Assembly (NCBI RefSeq): GCF_019688735.1
Contig: NZ_JAIFYA010000003.1
Location: 62,001-126,000 of the forward strand
DNA from: Thermosulfurimonas sp. F29
Lineage (GTDB): Bacteria > Desulfobacterota > Thermodesulfobacteria > Thermodesulfobacteriales > Thermodesulfobacteriaceae
DNA length: 64,000 nt
Direction: 5' to 3'
Position numbers and translations under genes: made by a program. This document shows, one piece after another, positions 8,915-22,083 of this stretch (position 1 is its first letter; every line of letters begins with the position of its first letter). The notes under the pieces were generated by a model. It did no database searches and was not told the origin of the DNA. It saw only the letters and a program-made list of their open reading frames with translations.

Positions 8915-9893
8915 AGACATCCAGATCCCAGCCGGCCTTGTGGCCGGCCGTGAATTCAAAATAGCCGGAAACCGCCACCATGGCCGCGTTATCGGTACAG
9001 TATTGCGGGGAAGGAAAGAAGACCTCAAACCCCTCCTCGCAAGCTCTCTCCTCAAAAAGTCCTCTCAGGCGACGATTGGCCGCCACCCCTCCCGAAACCA
9101 CGACCCTTCCTATGCCCGCGGCCTTCACCGCCCGCACGGTCTTTTCCACCAGAACCTCCGCCACCGCGGCCTCGAAGGCCGCGCAGAGATCGTGCACCAG
9201 AAATTCCTCCCCCGAACGCACCACATTCAACACCGCGGTCTTGAGCCCGGCGAAACTGAAGTCAAAATCCGGGCTATCCAGCATGGGTCTGGGAAGGCAG
9301 ATACGGTCGGGGTCTCCCTTCTCCGCCAGGCGACTTATCACCGGTCCCCCGGGATAGCCCAGATGGAGGAGCTTGGCCACCTTGTCAAAGGCCTCACCGG
9401 CGGCGTCGTCCCGGGTGTGCCCCAGAAGATAATGCTCCGTGGGGGAGCGTACCAGAAAAAGGGCCGTGTGTCCCCCGGAGACCACCAGACTTATCCAGGG
9501 AAACTCCGGGGCGTTTTCCAGAAATATAGCGAGACTGTGAGCCCTTACATGATCCACGGGCACCAGCGGTTTCCCGAGGGAAAAGGCCAGGGACTTGGCA
9601 AAGGAAACCCCCACCACCAGGGCCCCTACCAGCCCCGGTCCGGTGGTTACCGCCACGAGATCCACCTCCCCGGGGGAGATCCCGGCCCTCCCTAGGGTTT
9701 CCCTTACCAGGGGGTAAATGACCTCCAAGTGCTTCCGGGAGGCGATCTCCGGGACGATCCCCCCGAAGGGTCGATGAAGCTCCACCTGGGAGGCCACGAG
9801 GGAGGCCTTCAGCCGGAAATCCCTCTCTTTGCCGACCTCAAGCACCGCGGCGGCGGTCTCGTCGCAGGAACTCTCTATGGCCAGGACACGCAT
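8880..9893 (-). CDS. tsaD: tRNA threonylcarbamoyltransferase TsaD
   Basis: 337 residues, full length. It begins MRVLAIESSCDET; metal ligands are His115 and His119 in DHVRAHS; nucleotide motifs are VVSGGHTAL and VVVSGGVAANRRLR, and a Cys-containing SPQYCTDNAAM precedes the end. It transfers the threonylcarbamoyl group from TC-AMP to A37 of ANN-decoding tRNAs. rsmA follows with overlap, so the two RNA-modification genes are probably cotranscribed. Only 7 bases separate a TATTAT box from the ATG (see regulatory entry). Confidence 0.97.
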   Translation of the reverse strand: MRVLAIESSCDETAAAVLEVGKERDFRLKASLVASQVELHRPFGGIVPEIASRKHLEVIYPLVRETLGRAGISPGEVDLVAVTTGPGLVGALVVGVSFAKSLAFSLGKPLVPVDHVRAHSLAIFLENAPEFPWISLVVSGGHTALFLVRSPTEHYLLGHTRDDAAGEAFDKVAKLLHLGYPGGPVISRLAEKGDPDRICLPRPMLDSPDFDFSFAGLKTAVLNVVRSGEEFLVHDLCAAFEAAVAEVLVEKTVRAVKAAGIGRVVVSGGVAANRRLRGLFEERACEEGFEVFFPSPQYCTDNAAMVAVSGYFEFTAGHKAGWDLDVYARARFPRYSF

Positions 9894-9912
9894 GCCGTAT
9901 ATAATAGCAGAG
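9894..9912. promoter_or_regulatory. Bidirectional -10 element between tsaD and radC start codons
   Basis: Only 19 bp separate the two divergent ATGs (9893 minus, 9913 plus). The centre reads TATAATA. On the plus strand TATAAT occupies 9900-9905, 7 nt before the radC ATG; on the minus strand TATTAT occupies 9906-9901, 7 nt before the tsaD ATG. Transcripts would start at or next to each start codon, and neither gene has a clear Shine-Dalgarno. No good -35 box is seen on either side. Confidence 0.55.
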
Positions 9913-10626
9913 ATGCGCTCCCTTGAGGAATTCCACAAACGAATCTCCGGCCATAGGGAACGCTTGAGGCGGCGTTTTCTGGAGTACGGTCTTTCCGCTT
10001 TCACGGACGAGGACATCCTGGAGATGTTGCTGGCCTTCGGCACCCCCCGGCGAGACACGCGGGCTACGGCCCGGGAGCTTCTCAAACGGTTTGGCGGGCT
10101 GGCCGCAGTCCTGGAGGCCCCTCTGGAAAAACTTACGGAGGTACCGGGGGTGGGACCCAGGAATGCTTTGCCCCTCAAGTTCGTGCACGAGGTGGCCCGG
10201 CGGTATCTTCGCCGTCGCCTGGAGAAAAAGGAATACATTCGCAGTGCCCGTGAAGCCTACGAATACCTGGCCCACGAACTGAAGCATCGCCCCCAGGAGA
10301 TCTTCAAGGTAATCTTCCTGGATGCCCGGGGAAGAATTATCGAGGTGGAGGAACTTTTTCGGGGCACGCTTACCGAAACCGCCGTCTATCCCCGGGAGGT
10401 CTTCGCCCGGGCCTTTCAACACCGGGCGGCCTCCCTGGTGCTGGCCCACAACCACCCCAGCGGAGATCCCCGTCCCTCCGGGGCGGACCTCGAGCTCACC
10501 CGCAAATTATTGCTGGCCGGGCACCTCCTTTCGATCCGCATCCTGGATCACCTGATCATCGCCCGGGAGGGCTATTTCAGTCTGGCCGAGGAGGGAATTC
10601 TCGAAAAACTGGAAAGGGAGTTGTGA
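9913..10626 (+). CDS. radC: RadC family JAB/MPN-domain protein
   Basis: 237 residues: a helix-hairpin-helix region (LTEVPGVGPRNA, about 70-85), then the JAMM/MPN+ metalloprotease-like domain with AHNHPSGDPRPSGAD. The physiological activity of RadC proteins is unresolved; a nuclease or DNA-repair role was proposed historically and not confirmed. I chose ATG 9913 because upstream in-frame ATGs would lie in tsaD and the -10 box. Followed by ispH with a few bases between stop and ATG. Confidence 0.92.
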   Translation: MRSLEEFHKRISGHRERLRRRFLEYGLSAFTDEDILEMLLAFGTPRRDTRATARELLKRFGGLAAVLEAPLEKLTEVPGVGPRNALPLKFVHEVARRYLRRRLEKKEYIRSAREAYEYLAHELKHRPQEIFKVIFLDARGRIIEVEELFRGTLTETAVYPREVFARAFQHRAASLVLAHNHPSGDPRPSGADLELTRKLLLAGHLLSIRILDHLIIAREGYFSLAEEGILEKLEREL

Positions 10627-10631
10627 GGAAT

Positions 10632-12290
10632 ATGAAGGTAAGGCTCGCCCGAAAAGCCGGCTTTTGCATGGGGGTGCGACGGGCCATGCGTCTGGCCCTG
10701 AAGGCCGCCGAAACCTCCTCCAGACCGGTCTATACCTATGGCCCCCTGATTCATAATCCCCAGGCCCTCGAACTCCTGGAACGGCTCGGGGTGCGCGACC
10801 TCAAAAAGACGAAAACCGCACCGGAGGGGGTGGTCATCATCCGGGCCCACGGAGTGCCTCCGGAGGAAAAGGAGGCCCTGGCGGCCTCGGGGCTTGAGGT
10901 GATTGACGGAACCTGTCCCCGGGTGGCCAGGGTCCAGGCCCTGGCGCGAAAGTATTCCCGGGAAGGCTATCAGGTAATCGTCATAGGGGATCGGGATCAC
11001 GCCGAGGTAAGGGGAATCCTGGGTTATACCGGGGGGCGGGGAGTGGTGGTGGAAAGCTTCGGCGATCTCGAGAGTCTGCCCCCGCTAAAGAGGTATGTAA
11101 TCCTCTCCCAGACCACTCAGGACGAAGAAATCTTTGAACTCCTTTCCCGGGAGATCCTTTCCCGTTATCCCGGAGGAAAGGTCATCAACACCATCTGCCA
11201 CGCCACCCATGTGCGCCAGGAGAGTGTACGGGAGCTGGCGCGGGAATGCCCGGCCATAGTGGTGGTGGGAGGAAGGGGAAGTGCCAACACTAACCGGCTC
11301 GTCCAGATCGCCGGGGAGGAGGGGGCACGGGCCTTCCTGGTGGAAACCCCGGAGGAGTTGCCGCTTGCGGAACTGGCCCGATACCCCCGTGTGGGGGTGA
11401 GTGCCGGTGCCTCCACCCCCAACTGGCTCATAAACGGCGTGGTGGAACGACTGGCCGCCCACGGGAATCCCCTGCGGCACCTGCTGCGTGTGCTCCTCTA
11501 TCTGCATGTACCGCTGGCCCTTTCCGCGGTCTTGCTTCTGGCCGGAGGCTTCCTTATACTCGGAAAAACTCCGCCTCTTTCCGCAGCGGTTCTTGTATTC
11601 CTCATGGTCTTTTTTGCCCACACCTGGAACTCCCTGGTAGCCCGCGAGGTTCTGGCCCTGTGTCATCCCTACAAGGCCGCTTTCTACCGAAAACGGGAAA
11701 AGTTTCTGGTATCGTTATCCCTGGGGGCCTTTTCCGGGGCTCTCCTGATGGGCTATCGCCTGGGACCTCAGATTCTCATGCTTGTGGCTATTCTGGGAGG
11801 GATTTCGGCCCTCTACAGCCTCACCTCCCTGAGGGGACTCTTTCCGGGGAATCGCCCCCTATTCATTACTCTTTACTGGATCGTCCTGATGGGCTCTTTT
11901 CTGGTCCCTTCCTCGCCGCCGGGTCTGCCGGGCTTTGTGCTCCTCGGACTTATTGTTCTAGCCGTCTTCTTTCAAATTCTCTACCTGGATCTCCTGGATC
12001 TTTTCGAGGACGGCTTTCTCGGTCGCGAATCCATGGCGGCCTGGCTCGGAGAAAATCGAACCCTGAAACTCCTTATGGGATTACCCATTCCTGAAGTCCT
12101 CCTGATCCTGGGGATGGTCTTTTCGGCGGGCTGGAAGTTCCTGATCCTTCTTGGGGTCCCGTTCCTTCAGACAGGAATCACCTTTTTCCTGCGCCGCAAA
12201 CCCTTAGGCCGAAGGGTGTCTCTTGAATACCTCGGTCTTTCTCCTTCCCTGCTCTTCATGACCCTGAGTCTTCTGGTGGTGAAAATTTAG
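10632..12290 (+). CDS. ispH: IspH (HMBPP reductase) fused to a UbiA-like polytopic membrane domain
   Basis: 552 residues, about twice the usual IspH. Residues 1-275 are a complete 4-hydroxy-3-methylbut-2-enyl diphosphate reductase: [4Fe-4S] ligands Cys12, Cys95, Cys189; substrate residues His41, His73, His123 and Glu125; closing SAGASTPNWLI. These numbers match E. coli IspH almost exactly when translation starts at ATG 10632, which decides the start over a GTG at 10623. Residues about 283-552 hold 7-9 membrane helices. Loops there resemble the two Asp-rich loops of UbiA prenyltransferases: the first is degenerate (Asn333 in HTWNSL), the second is better kept (DLLDLFEDG near 453). Fusion is uninterrupted in frame. 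Confidence 0.93.
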   Translation: MKVRLARKAGFCMGVRRAMRLALKAAETSSRPVYTYGPLIHNPQALELLERLGVRDLKKTKTAPEGVVIIRAHGVPPEEKEALAASGLEVIDGTCPRVARVQALARKYSREGYQVIVIGDRDHAEVRGILGYTGGRGVVVESFGDLESLPPLKRYVILSQTTQDEEIFELLSREILSRYPGGKVINTICHATHVRQESVRELARECPAIVVVGGRGSANTNRLVQIAGEEGARAFLVETPEELPLAELARYPRVGVSAGASTPNWLINGVVERLAAHGNPLRHLLRVLLYLHVPLALSAVLLLAGGFLILGKTPPLSAAVLVFLMVFFAHTWNSLVAREVLALCHPYKAAFYRKREKFLVSLSLGAFSGALLMGYRLGPQILMLVAILGGISALYSLTSLRGLFPGNRPLFITLYWIVLMGSFLVPSSPPGLPGFVLLGLIVLAVFFQILYLDLLDLFEDGFLGRESMAAWLGENRTLKLLMGLPIPEVLLILGMVFSAGWKFLILLGVPFLQTGITFFLRRKPLGRRVSLEYLGLSPSLLFMTLSLLVVKI

Positions 12291-12293
12291 ATC

Positions 12294-12752
12294 ATGTCCG
12301 GGGACAAAGATCGCTTTTTTATGCTAGAGGCGCTGCGGGAGGCCGAAAAGGCCTTTCGGGAAGGGGAGGTTCCGGTGGGAGCGGTACTGGTATCTCCGGA
12401 GGGGGAAATCCTGGCCCGGGCGCACAATCGTCCCCTGGGGCTGTGTGATCCCACGGCGCACGCCGAAATCCTGGTCTTAAGGGAAGGGGCTCGCCGGGTG
12501 GGAAATTACCGTCTCCTCGGGACCACGCTTTATGTAACCCTGGAACCCTGTCCCATGTGCGCCGGAGCGCTGGTCCATGCCCGGGTAAAACGCCTGGTCT
12601 TCGGAGCCAGGGACGAACGGACGGGAGCCTGCGGAAGTCTTTACGATCTGGTGAGGGACCCGCGCCTGAACCACCGTCTCGAGGTGGAGGAAGGGATCCT
12701 GGCCGAGGAGGCCGCCCTACTCCTTCGGGAATTCTTCCGGCTACGCCGTTGA
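12294..12752 (+). CDS. tadA: tRNA-specific adenosine deaminase (A34 to inosine)
   Basis: 152 residues with the cytidine-deaminase-fold zinc motifs HAEILVLRE (His ligand and catalytic Glu) and PCPMCAGAL (two Cys ligands). The segment DERTGACGSLYDLV is characteristic of TadA rather than free-base deaminases. It deaminates the wobble A of tRNA-Arg(ACG). It lies 3 nt after the IspH fusion gene and has no obvious ribosome binding site, so translational coupling is likely. Confidence 0.95.
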   Translation: MSGDKDRFFMLEALREAEKAFREGEVPVGAVLVSPEGEILARAHNRPLGLCDPTAHAEILVLREGARRVGNYRLLGTTLYVTLEPCPMCAGALVHARVKRLVFGARDERTGACGSLYDLVRDPRLNHRLEVEEGILAEEAALLLREFFRLRR

Positions 12753-12813
12753 GAGTTTTCACGGGGATGCAATTTTTGAATCCGGTGTTATATTATTCGC
12801 TGCCGGGGCGAAA

Positions 12814-12907
12814 GGAGGGGTGCCCGAGTGGTCGAAGGGGGCCGACTCGAAATCGGCTAGGGGAGTGAAAGCTCCCCTCGGGGGTTCGAATCCCTCCCCC
12901 TCCGCCA
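12814..12907 (+). tRNA. tRNA-Ser (anticodon CGA)
   Basis: 94 nt including encoded CCA. Acceptor stem GGAGGGG (12814-12820) pairs with CCCCTCC (12897-12903), discriminator G, CCA at 12905-12907. Anticodon stem GCCGA/TCGGC closes the loop CTCGAAA with anticodon CGA (codon UCG). A long variable arm (GGGAG..CTCCC) marks it as class II serine tRNA; T arm GGGGGTTCGAATCCCTC is present. Confidence 0.97.
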
Positions 12908-13184: not shown

Positions 13185-14762
13185 TCAAGCAAGGCGGACC
13201 TCAAGGCCTTTTTCCCGGAGGTAACGCTTGATCTCGGGGATTTCCACCTCCCGGCGATGGAAGATGCCCGCAGCCAGGGCCGCTTCGGCCTGGGTGTGGG
13301 CGAAGACCTGGTAAAAGTGCTCCACCGAGCCGGCACCGCTTGAGGCGATCACCGGAATAGAGACCGCCTCCGCCACGGCCTGGATCAATTCCAGATCGTA
13401 TCCGCGATTGGTACCGTCGCGGTCGATGCTGTTCAAGAGTATCTCCCCGGCTCCGAGTTCCTCGCAGACCCGGGCCAGGGTGATGGCGTCCACATCCCGA
13501 GCCTCTCGTCCTCCCTTGACCGTGCACTGGAACCAGCAATAGCGTTCCCCGTTCGGACCGGGTTCGGCGGTCTCTATAACCGGATGTTCCGTTTCGGAAG
13601 GGCTTTTCACATAATGTCTCCGGGGATCGATGGATATCACCACCGCCTGTCGGCCGTAAACCCGGGAGATGGTTTCGATGGAGGATCGGCCCGAGGGACC
13701 CTTTCGGAGGACTTCCTCCACGATGTATACCGCATCGGAACCGATGGAGACCTTGTCCGCCCCGGCCCGAAAGTAGGCGGAGGCCACCTCCAGGGCGGTG
13801 TAGGAGCGTCCGTCGTGATCGGTGAAGTCCCGAATGCCCCCTCCGATGGTGAGCGGCACGAAGACCCGTTCGGAGGTGCGCCGAAGGACCTCCAGCATGG
13901 GTTGATCCTTCAGGGGGAAGTGGCGGAAACCGGTTATGTTCAGGAAGGTGATCTCGTCCGCCCCCTCCCGGTAATAGCGGTGGGCGAGGTCCACGGGGTC
14001 TCCCAGGTCCCGTACCCGGCCGCCCTCCCGCACATCGTACTGGAGCCCCTTGGTAACCACCAGACGCCCCTCGTCGTCCGAACGGACATCCAGGCAGGCG
14101 ATGATGCGTTTGGCCAGTTGAGTCCGCTCGGGAGGTCGAGAAGGCAGAACCACCGGCCCCTCCCCGCGGAGAAAATTTTCGAGGATCCGGAGTCCCGCCG
14201 GGCCACTTTTTTCCGGATGAAACTGAAGGGCCACCACATTCCCGTCCTCCACGGCACTCACGAACTCGATTCCGTAATCCGTGACCGTAAGGGCCAGGTC
14301 CGGATCCCAGGGATCCACATAGTAGGAATGGACGAAGTAGAATTTTTCCTCACCGGTCAGCCCCTGAAAGAGACGGGAGGGTTTGCGAGGTTTGATCCCG
14401 TTCCAGCCGATGTGGGGTACCGAAAGATCTATTCGAAAACGACGAACGAAACCGCGGAAGACGGAAAGCCCTGCCACGCCCGGGGCCTCCTCGCTTCCCT
14501 CGAAAAGCACCTGAAGCCCCAGGCAGATTCCCAGAAAGGGACGATTGGCCCGCAGGTATTCCCGCAGCGGTTCCACGAAGCCCTTTTCGTGAAGGGCTCG
14601 CATGATGCTTCCGAAATGGCCCACCCCCGGAAAGACCAGCCGCTCGGCGGAAAGGATGTCTTCCGGGCGTTCCACGAACCTAACCTCGGCCCCCAGGACC
14701 CGCAGGGCGTTTACCACGCTTCGCACATTTCCCGCTCCGTAATCAAGCAGCGCCACCCGCAT
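13185..14762 (-). CDS. hisHF: Bifunctional imidazole glycerol phosphate synthase HisHF fusion
   Basis: 525 residues combining the glutaminase HisH (about 1-205; nucleophile Cys80 in GICLGLQ; LQFHPEKSG His-x-Glu) and the cyclase HisF (about 218-525; ACLDVR Asp, IGGGIRD phosphate loop, LNSIDRDGT Asp, ASSGAG). It converts PRFAR and glutamine to IGP and AICAR in histidine synthesis. The HisF half carries the insertion and phrasing seen in fungal/plant HIS7 (GERYCWFQCTVKGGRE, SSGAGSVEHF). Bacteria usually encode two separate subunits. Start at ATG 14762 (MRVALLDYGAGN, AGGGG upstream). No other his gene is near. Confidence 0.95.
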   Translation of the reverse strand: MRVALLDYGAGNVRSVVNALRVLGAEVRFVERPEDILSAERLVFPGVGHFGSIMRALHEKGFVEPLREYLRANRPFLGICLGLQVLFEGSEEAPGVAGLSVFRGFVRRFRIDLSVPHIGWNGIKPRKPSRLFQGLTGEEKFYFVHSYYVDPWDPDLALTVTDYGIEFVSAVEDGNVVALQFHPEKSGPAGLRILENFLRGEGPVVLPSRPPERTQLAKRIIACLDVRSDDEGRLVVTKGLQYDVREGGRVRDLGDPVDLAHRYYREGADEITFLNITGFRHFPLKDQPMLEVLRRTSERVFVPLTIGGGIRDFTDHDGRSYTALEVASAYFRAGADKVSIGSDAVYIVEEVLRKGPSGRSSIETISRVYGRQAVVISIDPRRHYVKSPSETEHPVIETAEPGPNGERYCWFQCTVKGGREARDVDAITLARVCEELGAGEILLNSIDRDGTNRGYDLELIQAVAEAVSIPVIASSGAGSVEHFYQVFAHTQAEAALAAGIFHRREVEIPEIKRYLREKGLEVRLA

Positions 14763-14803
14763 TTCCGGCCCCTCACGGTCTTTTGGCGACCATTTTAACA
14801 CGG

Positions 14804-18551: not shown

Positions 18552-19937
18552 ATGAGGGTCGTCTGTATTGAACCGCGCAACCCGCGCACCCATGTGTTTT
18601 CGGCCTTCAGGCTTCCTCGTCTGGCCATGCCCCTCCTGGGCACCATCCTCCGGAATCGGGGCCACGAGGTCAGGGTCTTCCTCGAGGAATGGGGTGAGGT
18701 GGACTGGAGGGCGGTGCGCGAAGCGGACCTGGTGCTCATCTCCACCATCACCCCCACCGCCGAGAGGGCTTACGCGCTGGCCGACCGGATACGCCGGGAA
18801 TGGCACAAACCCGTCGTCCTGGGAGGCCCTCACGCCACCTTTCTTCCGGACGAGGCCCTGGAGCACGCGGACTTCGTGATCCGGGGCGAGGGAGAGAAAA
18901 CCGTGGTGGAGCTGGTGGAGGTTCTCTCCGACGGCGGAGGGTTCGAGACCGTCCCCGGCCTCTCCTTCCGGCGGGGGGAGGAGCGGGTGCACAACCCGCC
19001 CCGGCAGGGGTTCGTGGACCTGGACGAGCTTCCCGTCCCGGACTTTCGCCTGGTGCCCGGGGTGAGTCCGGAAAGGATGCGCATCTATCCCACCATGACC
19101 TCCCGGGGGTGCCCCTACGGCTGCGTTTTCTGCTCGGTGATCGCCATGTTCGGCCGCAAGTATCGCTATCGCTCCACGGAACTCGTCCTGGAAGAGATCT
19201 CCGGCATCCAACCGGGACAGCATGTCTTCTTCTACGACGACAACTTCGCCGCCCACCCCGAGCGCACCAAGGAATTGCTTGAAGGTATGATCAGACAGAA
19301 CTTTCGGGGCGTATGGTCCTCTCAGGTTCGCATCGATGTCTATCGGGACCGGGAGATGCTAGATCTCATGAAAAGGAGTCGCTGTTTCGTGGTTTACATC
19401 GGTCTTGAGTCCGTGAATCCGGAAACGCTTAAGGCCTTCCGCAAGGGTATCACCTTTCAGGAGATCGAGGAGGGTGTGCGCGCCTTTCATCGTTACGGGA
19501 TTCGGGTGCACGGGATGTTCGTGATCGGGGCCGATACCGACACCGAAGAGACCATCCGGGCCACTCTGGATTTCGCCAGGAAGGTCCATCTGGATTCCGC
19601 CCAGTTCCTGGTCCTCACCCCGATTCCGGGCTCGAAGCTGTTTCGCCAGTTCGAGGAGGCCGGGCGCATCTTCGACCGCCGCTGGGACCTCTACGACGGC
19701 CATCATGTGGTCTTCCATCCCCGGAACCTCTCCCCGCTGCGCCTCATGGAGCTTTCCTATGAGCTTCACCGGCGATTTTATTCCCTTTCCGAGGCCCTGC
19801 GTCGTCTGCTGCGCGGGGACCGGTTCGGGGCCTATATCGCCTTCATGGGCCGGAAATTCGTGCGCCGCTGGCGGAAGGAAAACGAAGAGGAATTCGCCTA
19901 CCTGAGCTCCCTCACCGCGGCCAGCGCCGCCTCGTAA
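18552..19937 (+). CDS. B12-binding-domain radical SAM protein
   Basis: 461 residues: a Rossmann-like cobalamin-binding domain (1-130, no DxHxxG motif, so base-off type), then a radical SAM barrel with Cys187, Cys191, Cys194 in RGCPYGCVFC, glycine motif YDDNFAAH, and a C-terminal helical tail. Related to the large family that includes hopanoid/lipid and bacteriochlorophyll modifying enzymes and MiaB-like methyltransferases; I cannot assign a substrate. ATG at 18552 preceded by a G-rich ribosome site. Its 3' end overlaps the convergent peroxidase gene by 40 nt. Confidence 0.87.
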   Translation: MRVVCIEPRNPRTHVFSAFRLPRLAMPLLGTILRNRGHEVRVFLEEWGEVDWRAVREADLVLISTITPTAERAYALADRIRREWHKPVVLGGPHATFLPDEALEHADFVIRGEGEKTVVELVEVLSDGGGFETVPGLSFRRGEERVHNPPRQGFVDLDELPVPDFRLVPGVSPERMRIYPTMTSRGCPYGCVFCSVIAMFGRKYRYRSTELVLEEISGIQPGQHVFFYDDNFAAHPERTKELLEGMIRQNFRGVWSSQVRIDVYRDREMLDLMKRSRCFVVYIGLESVNPETLKAFRKGITFQEIEEGVRAFHRYGIRVHGMFVIGADTDTEETIRATLDFARKVHLDSAQFLVLTPIPGSKLFRQFEEAGRIFDRRWDLYDGHHVVFHPRNLSPLRLMELSYELHRRFYSLSEALRRLLRGDRFGAYIAFMGRKFVRRWRKENEEEFAYLSSLTAASAAS

Positions 19938-20914
19938 TCGGGTTCCCGGGTGACTTCGGAAACCACTTCCACATAACGCACGGTGTCGTCGCGATCCAGC
20001 ACCAGAACCGCCCGGGCTAGCAACCCCAGCTCCTTGATGAGGAGCCCGTAGGCCCGGCCGAAGGCCCTCTCCCGGTAGTCCGAAAGCACCGTCACCCTAT
20101 CGATGCCCGCGGCTCCGCAGTAGCGGGCCAGGGCAAAGGGAATATCCACGCTCACATTGAGCACCACCACCTCATCGGAAAACGCCGCGGCCTCGGCATT
20201 GAACCTTCGGGCCTGGAGGTCGCACACCGGGGTGTCCAGAGAGGGGGTCACGCTTATCACCTTTATCCGTCCGGAAAAGTCCGCCAGCGCCACCGGATTG
20301 AGGTCCCTGTCCACCAGGGTGAAGGCCGGGGCCTTCTGGCCCACCCGAATCTCCGGTCCTATCAGGGTGAGGGGCTGCCCCTTAAAGGTCACGGCCCCGG
20401 GACGCTCCTCGAGCCCCTTTAGCTTGCGCAGAAAGGCCCTCATGAAGGCCGGAAGATCCCCGGGATGGCGCGAGGTGACGATCTGACCGTCCACCACCAC
20501 CTCCCGGTCGAGGTATTCCGCCCCGCAGGCCAGCACTTCATCCTTCACCTTCCAGTAGCAGGTGGCTTTGTGGCCCGAAAGGAGTCCGGCGGAGACGAGA
20601 ATCTGCGGACCGTGACATATGGCCGCAATGGGTTTGCCGCTACGGTAAAAATTCCGAACCAGGGCGAGCACCCGTTCGTCCTCCCGCAGGGCGGCCGGGG
20701 CCTTTCCACCGGGAAGCACGAGCCCCGCGTAGTCCTCCACCCGCACCTCCTCCAGGGTGAGGTCCACCGGTACCTCGTAGCCCCGCTTTCCCCGGATCTT
20801 CTCCTTCTTAAACGAGGCCACCTCGGGCGTGAAACCCTCCTCCCGAAGGCGCCAGTAAGGATAGAGAAGTTCACTGTCCTCGAACTGGTCGGCACTGAGA
20901 ATAAGGACTCTCAT
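19898..20914 (-). CDS. PfpI/DJ-1 domain fused to thiol peroxidase (Tpx)
   Basis: 338 residues made of two intact enzymes. Residues 1-167: DJ-1/PfpI fold with Glu12, nucleophile Cys100-His101 in AAICHGPQ and closing TSRHPGDLPAF (protein/glyoxal repair or protease-like family). Residues 173-338: atypical 2-Cys peroxiredoxin Tpx, starting VTFKGQPLTLIG as free Tpx proteins do, peroxidatic Cys231 in SLDTPVCDLQ, resolving Cys266 in ARYCGAAGID. No stop, frameshift or linker separates them. It probably combines peroxide removal with repair of oxidatively damaged or glycated molecules. Divergent from a universal stress protein. Confidence 0.92.
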   Translation of the reverse strand: MRVLILSADQFEDSELLYPYWRLREEGFTPEVASFKKEKIRGKRGYEVPVDLTLEEVRVEDYAGLVLPGGKAPAALREDERVLALVRNFYRSGKPIAAICHGPQILVSAGLLSGHKATCYWKVKDEVLACGAEYLDREVVVDGQIVTSRHPGDLPAFMRAFLRKLKGLEERPGAVTFKGQPLTLIGPEIRVGQKAPAFTLVDRDLNPVALADFSGRIKVISVTPSLDTPVCDLQARRFNAEAAAFSDEVVVLNVSVDIPFALARYCGAAGIDRVTVLSDYRERAFGRAYGLLIKELGLLARAVLVLDRDDTVRYVEVVSEVTREPDYEAALAAVRELR

Positions 20915-20940
20915 TTCGGCCTCCCTCAAAGTCTTTGATC

Positions 20941-20947
20941 TATGATA
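20941..20947. promoter_or_regulatory. Symmetric -10 element between pfpI-tpx and usp
   Basis: TATGATA reads as TATGAT on the plus strand and TATCAT on the minus strand, midway between the two divergent starts (20914 minus, 20981 plus). It could fire both ways, which would co-express two stress genes. No consensus -35 found; inference. Confidence 0.4.
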
Positions 20948-20980
20948 AAGTAAAAGAACAGATTTTTCGAGGAGTCCAGC

Positions 20981-21913
20981 ATGGTTCCGGCGCGAAAGGT
21001 GCTCCTGGCTTACGACGGCACCACTCCTTCCCGGAAGGCCGTGGCCTACCTCAACGAGGTCTTCGGCCATCGGCGGGACTTTACGATCACCCTGTGCGTG
21101 GTGGCCCGGCGTCCGCCTTCCTATTTGCTCCGTGGTGGTGGAGGAAAGCCCCTCTTTGAAAGGGAGGATCTGCTGGAGAAGGCCATTGCCGAGAACATGG
21201 CCCGGGCCCGGGCCGTGGCCGAAAGGGGACGGCAACTGCTCTCCGCCTTCCCCGAAGACGCGGTGGACCTCAAGGTTTCCCTTCAGACCGGGGATCTGGC
21301 TTACGAAATCATCCGGGAGGCGGAGGGGGGCTACTACGACGCCGTGGTGGTGGGGCGGCGGGGGCTTTCCCGGGCCACGCAGGGGTTCATGGGGAGCGTA
21401 TCCTACAAACTGGCCGAACACGCCCGGATTCCGGTTTGGATGGTGGCCGGGGAGGGCTGGAATCACCGGGTGCTCGTGGCCGTGGATCTGGGAGAGCCCG
21501 GTTTTCGGGTGGTGGACCATGTGGCTTATGTCTTTGCCGGGGATCCCGGGGTGGAAATCACGCTGTTTCATGTGGTCTATCCCTGGACGGGGACCGGGCC
21601 CCGCACCGAGACCCTCAAGAGGATCGAGGCGGGGCTCGTGGCCGCCGAGGAGGAGGAAACCCGGACCTTTTTCGAGAAGGCCCGCCGACGCTTCGAGGAG
21701 GAGGGGTTCCCCACCGAGAGGGTCCGGGTGCGAATCGTGCGGTCCATTTTCGGGCCGGCCTCGGCCATCCTCAAGGAGGCCCGAAAGGGCGGCTACGGTA
21801 CGGTAGTGGTAGGGCGTCGGGGCCGCGGAGGCTTCAAGGGACTTCTTCTCGGTTCCGTCTCCACCAAAATTATTTCCACGCTCAAGGACCGAACCGTATG
21901 GCTGGTCGGGTAA
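20981..21913 (+). CDS. Tandem universal stress protein (two UspA domains)
   Basis: 310 residues with two Usp folds (about 1-157 and 160-310). Each ends in the ATP-binding loop: VVVGRRGLSRATQGFMGSVS and VVVGRRGRGGFKGLLLGSVS, the G-x2-G-x9-G(S) pattern, so both halves probably bind ATP. GAGGAG precedes the ATG. Usp proteins protect under starvation, redox and heat stress by mechanisms poorly known. Divergent from the PfpI-Tpx fusion. The last 16 nt overlap yacG. Confidence 0.94.
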   Translation: MVPARKVLLAYDGTTPSRKAVAYLNEVFGHRRDFTITLCVVARRPPSYLLRGGGGKPLFEREDLLEKAIAENMARARAVAERGRQLLSAFPEDAVDLKVSLQTGDLAYEIIREAEGGYYDAVVVGRRGLSRATQGFMGSVSYKLAEHARIPVWMVAGEGWNHRVLVAVDLGEPGFRVVDHVAYVFAGDPGVEITLFHVVYPWTGTGPRTETLKRIEAGLVAAEEEETRTFFEKARRRFEEEGFPTERVRVRIVRSIFGPASAILKEARKGGYGTVVVGRRGRGGFKGLLLGSVSTKIISTLKDRTVWLVG

Positions 21914-22083
21914 GACGGTGCCCAATCTGCGGCAGGCCGACCTCCTGGAGGAAAAACCCTTATCGCCCATTCTGTTCGGAAAGATGCAAACTGGTGGATC
22001 TGGACCGGTGGTTCTCCGAAGAATATCGCATTTCCGTATCCCGAGACACTATGGAAGCCGAGGAAGAGGAGGTGAAGGGATGA
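21898..22083 (+). CDS. yacG: YacG-type zinc protein (DNA gyrase inhibitor family)
   Basis: 61 residues, the usual size. Four zinc ligands: Cys8, Cys11, Cys26, Cys30 in RCPICGRP...FCSERC, followed by the family signature KLVDLDRWFSEEYRI. In E. coli YacG binds GyrB and blocks DNA binding. It starts inside the end of the usp gene and its TGA overlaps the cysC ATG (22080-22083), so usp, yacG and cysC are translationally coupled. Confidence 0.92.
   Translation: MAGRVRRCPICGRPTSWRKNPYRPFCSERCKLVDLDRWFSEEYRISVSRDTMEAEEEEVKG

Follow-up and report, generated by a model that had tools for sequence, protein, structure and literature searches.

An IspH protein fused to a UbiA-fold membrane domain with an eroded first aspartate motif in Thermosulfurimonas sp. 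F29

IspH (HMBPP reductase) catalyzes the final step in the synthesis of isoprenoid precursors. In Thermosulfurimonas sp. F29 it is encoded in one reading frame with a membrane domain resembling the UbiA prenyltransferases, which raises the question of what such a domain does when it is joined to IspH and part of its own metal-binding site has been replaced. The fusion gene (10632-12290, + strand) lies in the window, the 64,000-nucleotide stretch of DNA analysed here, and translates as a single frame of 552 residues plus stop, with no internal stop codon; full-length homologous fusions are found in relatives. It starts at ATG 10632, with TGAGG at the ribosome-binding position, directly 3' of a radC-like gene that ends at 10626 (9829-10626, +; PF04002, E 2.7e-44), and it is adjoined on its 3' side by a tadA-like deaminase gene (12294-12752, +; PF14437, E 5.8e-32; PF00383, E 4.1e-28). 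A tRNA-Ser gene (anticodon cga; 12813-12907, +) is located shortly 3' of this run of three genes. Comparison of neighbourhoods showed that the genes next to the fusion differ by lineage: radC and tadA are found in the window's family, while other lineages have clusters that resemble parA/parB and ftsY, as judged from sequence starts alone. No isoprenoid or quinone gene common to the fusion neighbourhoods was seen across the lineages compared. In the anammox-type Planctomycetota loci, one membrane-protein gene (cluster 14) is located 3' of the fusion in 8/8 cases (L126, L128, L139, L141, L152, L159, L172 and L174).

The N-terminal half of the protein (residues 1-277; 10632-11462, +) matches the LytB/IspH family PF02401 over residues 3-274 with an E-value of 1.9e-85. 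A preliminary description of this DNA had recognized a complete soluble IspH with Cys12, Cys95 and Cys189, and this assignment is borne out: C12, C95 and C189, as well as H41, H73, H123, E125, T161, S217, N219 and S261, do not vary across an alignment of 48 fusion proteins. The predicted model of this half superimposes on E. coli IspH with a Z-score of 30.4, and structure alignment reveals 44% identity to the Aquifex enzyme (3DNF). The fusion is the sole IspH of the genome. The N-terminal domain, whose catalytic residues are all present, is the predicted sole HMBPP reductase of the cell.

As had been described, the chain runs unbroken into a membrane domain (residues 280-552; 11469-12287, +) with nine predicted transmembrane helices. 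This domain shows a match to the UbiA family PF01040 over residues 298-520, with an E-value of 3.6e-6 when the whole protein is searched; searched alone it gives 3.5e-7 and 30.2 bits, slightly under the Pfam cut-off of 34.2. NCBIfam contains no model for the domain. A PDB sequence search with it, either as a single sequence or as a profile, produced no match; hence, fold comparison was needed. We built an AlphaFold2 model of the whole chain with the 48 fusion sequences, which has a mean pLDDT of 92.7 and a pTM of 0.88. In Foldseek searches with the model, UbiA structures rank straight after the IspH structures (7BPU, 2.6e-5; 4TQ3, 1.9e-3), and VIA-align superimposes the predicted domain onto 4OD5 with a Z-score of 17.7 and an rmsd of 3.3 for 249 residues. 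The best non-UbiA structures in this comparison, at Z-scores of about 11-12, are soluble prenyl synthases, which have a superfamily fold in common with UbiA. Thus, the structure prediction that the preliminary description had proposed indicates a nine-helix UbiA fold. The more eroded domain of the Caldimicrobium-type proteins has no Pfam match but is still predicted to adopt the UbiA fold (pLDDT 95.7), its model giving a Z-score of 16.9 and an rmsd of 4.0 for 249 residues against UBIAD1, and a Z-score of 14.9 against both 4TQ4 and 4OD5.

The fusion itself is not new. The preliminary description implied otherwise, but the class was published in 2015 with the same functional proposals (PMC4746011). 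These proposals, that IPP/DMAPP would be supplied at the membrane or that the domain may be an anchor or sensor, are plausible. Rao et al. reported 47 IspH-UbiA fusions, named the membrane domain PT_UbiA_5, the function of which was unknown in that study, and stated that it harbors two DXXXD repeats (PMC4746011). They also found separate UbiA/MenA proteins in fusion-bearing genomes, proposed either a membrane-targeting role for the domain or a sensor function for IspH, and attempted full-length expression from three species, including Thermodesulfatator atlanticus, without success (PMC4746011). The window protein belongs to this published family: it is like the "Rosetta stone" fusions in architecture, size and domain order, and T. 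atlanticus, the source of one of them, is a thermophile near the window's lineage. However, the published fusions were described as having two DXXXD repeats and as occurring only in sulfate-reducing anaerobes, whereas the window protein has no aspartate in its first motif. The IspH-RPS1 fusions from the same study, which are likewise found in anaerobes and also consist of IspH with a long C-terminal extension, differ in their partner, as the ribosomal protein S1 repeats are soluble and unrelated to the membrane domain of the window protein (PMC4746011).

To what extent is the fusion distributed? Full-length matches are present throughout the genus, family and order of the window. A profile of the membrane domain, run against 395 genomes sampled from the phylum, matched 181 of them at E <= 1e-3; dropping 20 weak matches (E above 1e-25) leaves about 161. 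Nearly all profile matches listed sit in frames of at least 440 residues. We also scanned genome contigs more widely using the full-length alignment, whereby IspH is found first, and the best 80 loci considered here are thus not a census. The closest named record among these 80 is from a Thermosulfurimonas dismutans metagenome-assembled genome (L097, 69% identity). The set also includes Candidatus Scalindua, Kuenenia, Anammoxibacter and Brocadiaceae of the Planctomycetota, as well as Thermodesulfovibrio and other Nitrospirota, the fusion records from these two phyla being from metagenome-assembled genomes. In records from Kuenenia, Scalindua, Anammoxibacter and Thermodesulfovibrio, Pfam searches detect LytB and UbiA within a single protein, with one of the two Scalindua proteins just below the cut-off. 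The presence of the fusion in anammox Planctomycetota and in Nitrospirota, beyond the sulfate reducers, is new here.

A quick tree of IspH sequences places the fusions and four unfused IspH proteins in one group with a support of 99, and recovers two single clades within the data, one for the window's clade (support 98) and one for the Caldimicrobium/Thermodesulfobacterium group (support 100). The four unfused proteins located inside the fused clade (L214, L216, L220 and L221) are possible cases of domain loss. Among the profile matches listed, none is a membrane domain from three of their genomes (G042, G043 and G055), and the fourth genome (G061) is also absent from the matches, which suggests that the domain was lost, with the caveat that long branches make these placements unsure. 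Unfused IspH proteins within the fused clade would mean that the domain is dispensable.

The motifs of the membrane domain can be read against those of AfUbiA, in which two Mg2+ ions are bound by N68, D72, D198 and D202, D76 makes no direct contact to Mg2+, and the first motif conforms to the catalytic pattern NDXXDXXXD (PMC4106721). Six AfUbiA residues, these four ligands together with R22 and K146, were mutated; GPP binding was abolished by four of the six alanine changes, D72A among them, and was weakened 45-fold by D198A and 21-fold by D202A (PMC4106721). In our sequence alignment, AfUbiA N68, D72, D76, D198 and D202 correspond to N333, A337, L341, D456 and D460. The first motif loop of the window protein (residues 333-349; 11628-11678, +) reads N333-SLV-A337-REV-L341, and thus retains the asparagine, has lost both aspartate positions and departs from NDXXDXXXD. 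The second motif loop (residues 453-469, DLLDLFEDGFLGRESMA; 11988-12038, +) opens with DLLDLFEDG (residues 453-461), which had been likened to the second UbiA aspartate motif and does contain a DXXXD, formed by D456 and D460. N333, D456 and D460 are retained in 8/8 proteins of the window's clade and the D72 position is alanine in 8/8, so that the degradation of the first motif, also correctly noted earlier, is clade-wide. The domain therefore has the second motif, as well as the predicted fold, of the UbiA prenyltransferases AfUbiA (4TQ3), ApUbiA (4OD5) and digeranylgeranylglyceryl phosphate synthase (7BPU), but unlike these it has no first aspartate motif, and it shows 13-16% identity to the structures.

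The loss of ligands extends well beyond this protein. The complete set of four Mg2+ ligands occurs in 25/95 other (ordinary) fusions, or 39/95 if glutamate is counted, in 2/8 fusions from Planctomycetota and in 0/5 Nitrospirota-like fusions. None of the 23 proteins of the window's family has the full set (0/8 in the window's clade and 0/15 in the sister Caldimicrobium/Thermodesulfobacterium group, in which three of the four ligands are lost). As a control, 30 separate UbiA proteins of the phylum were picked without a pattern that presupposes aspartate, and 29-30 of them retain these positions. Contrary to the 2015 remark, two DXXXD repeats are thus a feature of few members, and the remark, which most other fusions contradict, cannot serve to define the family. 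The same genome also encodes, at G000:C1:408333, an unfused UbiA homologue in which neither motif is degraded, indicating that quinone prenylation need not depend on the fused domain.

The two halves of the protein have diverged to different degrees. Where IspH identity is 0.7-0.8, the mean pairwise identity of the membrane domain is 0.48 for the window's clade and 0.37 for its sister group, against 0.64 outside these two; the membrane domain diverges faster, relative to IspH, where its motifs are eroded. Ranked by conservation in the window's clade, residues 453-469 come first among the 258 segments of 17 residues in the domain, and the second-motif loop ranks third in both other groups. The suggestion of a "dead prenyltransferase" is therefore too simple: no other part of the domain is as well conserved in this clade as the second-motif loop. 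Within the window's clade, 63/274 positions are at least 95% conserved, most densely in the motif loops, and the first-motif loop there has a strict pattern of its own, FFAHTWN.L.A...L.LC.PYKA. In comparisons with relatives, the frames stay open and third codon positions are the most variable, and the membrane domain appears to be under selection still. The strict loop patterns and the conservation of the loops speak for an altered yet constrained site, or for an interface with IspH.

The reading that we favor, with a probability of about 50%, is that the UbiA-fold domain tethers IspH to the membrane, that classical prenyl transfer has been lost in this lineage and that a constrained site has been kept. 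The long cytoplasmic loops of the domain are predicted to be on the IspH side of the membrane, and the domain would hold IspH at the cytoplasmic membrane face, near the enzymes that use IPP/DMAPP. As the first-motif aspartate that holds the Mg2+-diphosphate in UbiA enzymes appears to be lost in the window's lineage, classical prenyl transfer is most likely gone. The constrained second-motif loop may bind a ligand or touch IspH; its top rank in conservation speaks against a mere anchor, which would not need it. This tethering model is supported by the lone IspH, the separate intact UbiA, the confident UbiA-fold model, the alanine at the D72 position and the absent ligand set, as well as by the sister group's domain, which is below Pfam detection yet UbiA-folded in its model, and by the faster divergence of the UbiA half. 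The unfused IspH proteins inside the fused clade of the quick tree count against it.

It is unlikely that the domain of the window protein is a working prenyltransferase with a modified first motif that uses prenyl diphosphates derived from the IPP/DMAPP that its own IspH half would produce, as proposed by Rao et al. (PMC4746011). The retention of N333, D456 and D460 in 8/8 proteins of the clade and the high conservation of the motif loops would fit such an enzyme and, given that 25/95 other fusions have all four Mg2+ ligands, ordinary members may well be active. However, the clade-wide alanine is at the position where D72A abolishes GPP binding by AfUbiA (PMC4106721), and the sister group is without three of the four ligands. 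Moreover, the genome encodes an intact UbiA homologue outside the fusion, no acceptor-pathway gene was seen next to the fusion in the neighbourhoods compared, and IspH produces C5 units whereas the substrates of UbiA enzymes are mostly long chains made by another enzyme.

Distinctly unlikely, by our estimate, is a regulatory sensor, in which the altered site would bind a prenyl diphosphate or quinone and change the activity or stability of IspH. The model for this is human UBIAD1-HMG-CoA reductase (8DJK), likewise a UbiA-fold protein joined to an isoprenoid-precursor reductase, where UBIAD1 controls the reductase in animals (PMC4374513). An active-site region that is constrained but altered, fused to the supply reductase, would be in keeping with this precedent. 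Yet the basis of the proposal is analogy: UBIAD1 and HMG-CoA reductase are separate proteins, and the pathway and the reductase are different. In addition, loss of the D72 aspartate should weaken diphosphate binding. The specific version, whereby a former prenyltransferase site would sense membrane prenyl diphosphates or quinones and control IspH as a bacterial MEP-pathway counterpart of UBIAD1-HMG-CoA reductase, is more doubtful still.

We consider it very improbable that the domain is a decaying remnant, retained merely through its fusion to an essential enzyme. The stepwise loss of motif residues towards Caldimicrobium/Thermodesulfobacterium, the fast divergence and the apparent domain losses in other lineages are what decay would produce, but all members examined have an open frame and a UbiA fold, variation is greatest at third codon positions, and the 63 highly conserved positions fall mainly in the motif loops. 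Finally, the idea that an error of assembly or sequencing joined two genes can be dismissed, as the same junction is present in dozens of independent assemblies and in the literature; in the relatives, which the preliminary description had named as a check, the fusion is unbroken across genus, family and order.

The window contains other frames that combine domains. At 13185-14801 (-), a glutamine amidotransferase and a HisF-type domain (PF00117 then PF00977) share one 538-residue frame, which resembles the eukaryotic fused HisH-HisF enzyme. At 19898-21970 (-), a DJ-1/PfpI domain is followed in one frame by a peroxiredoxin-type redoxin domain, and the real start of this protein probably lies around residue 350 of the frame as listed.

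While the IspH-UbiA fusion has been known since 2015, the motif survey shifts what needs testing. As a complete Mg2+ ligand set is missing from most members and from the whole of the window's family, roles besides ordinary prenyl transfer have to be considered, and the occurrence of the fusion in anammox bacteria and Nitrospirota indicates that it does not depend on a sulfate-reducing metabolism. In nature the fusions span a range of sites, nearly complete at one end and eroded at the other, that can be compared.
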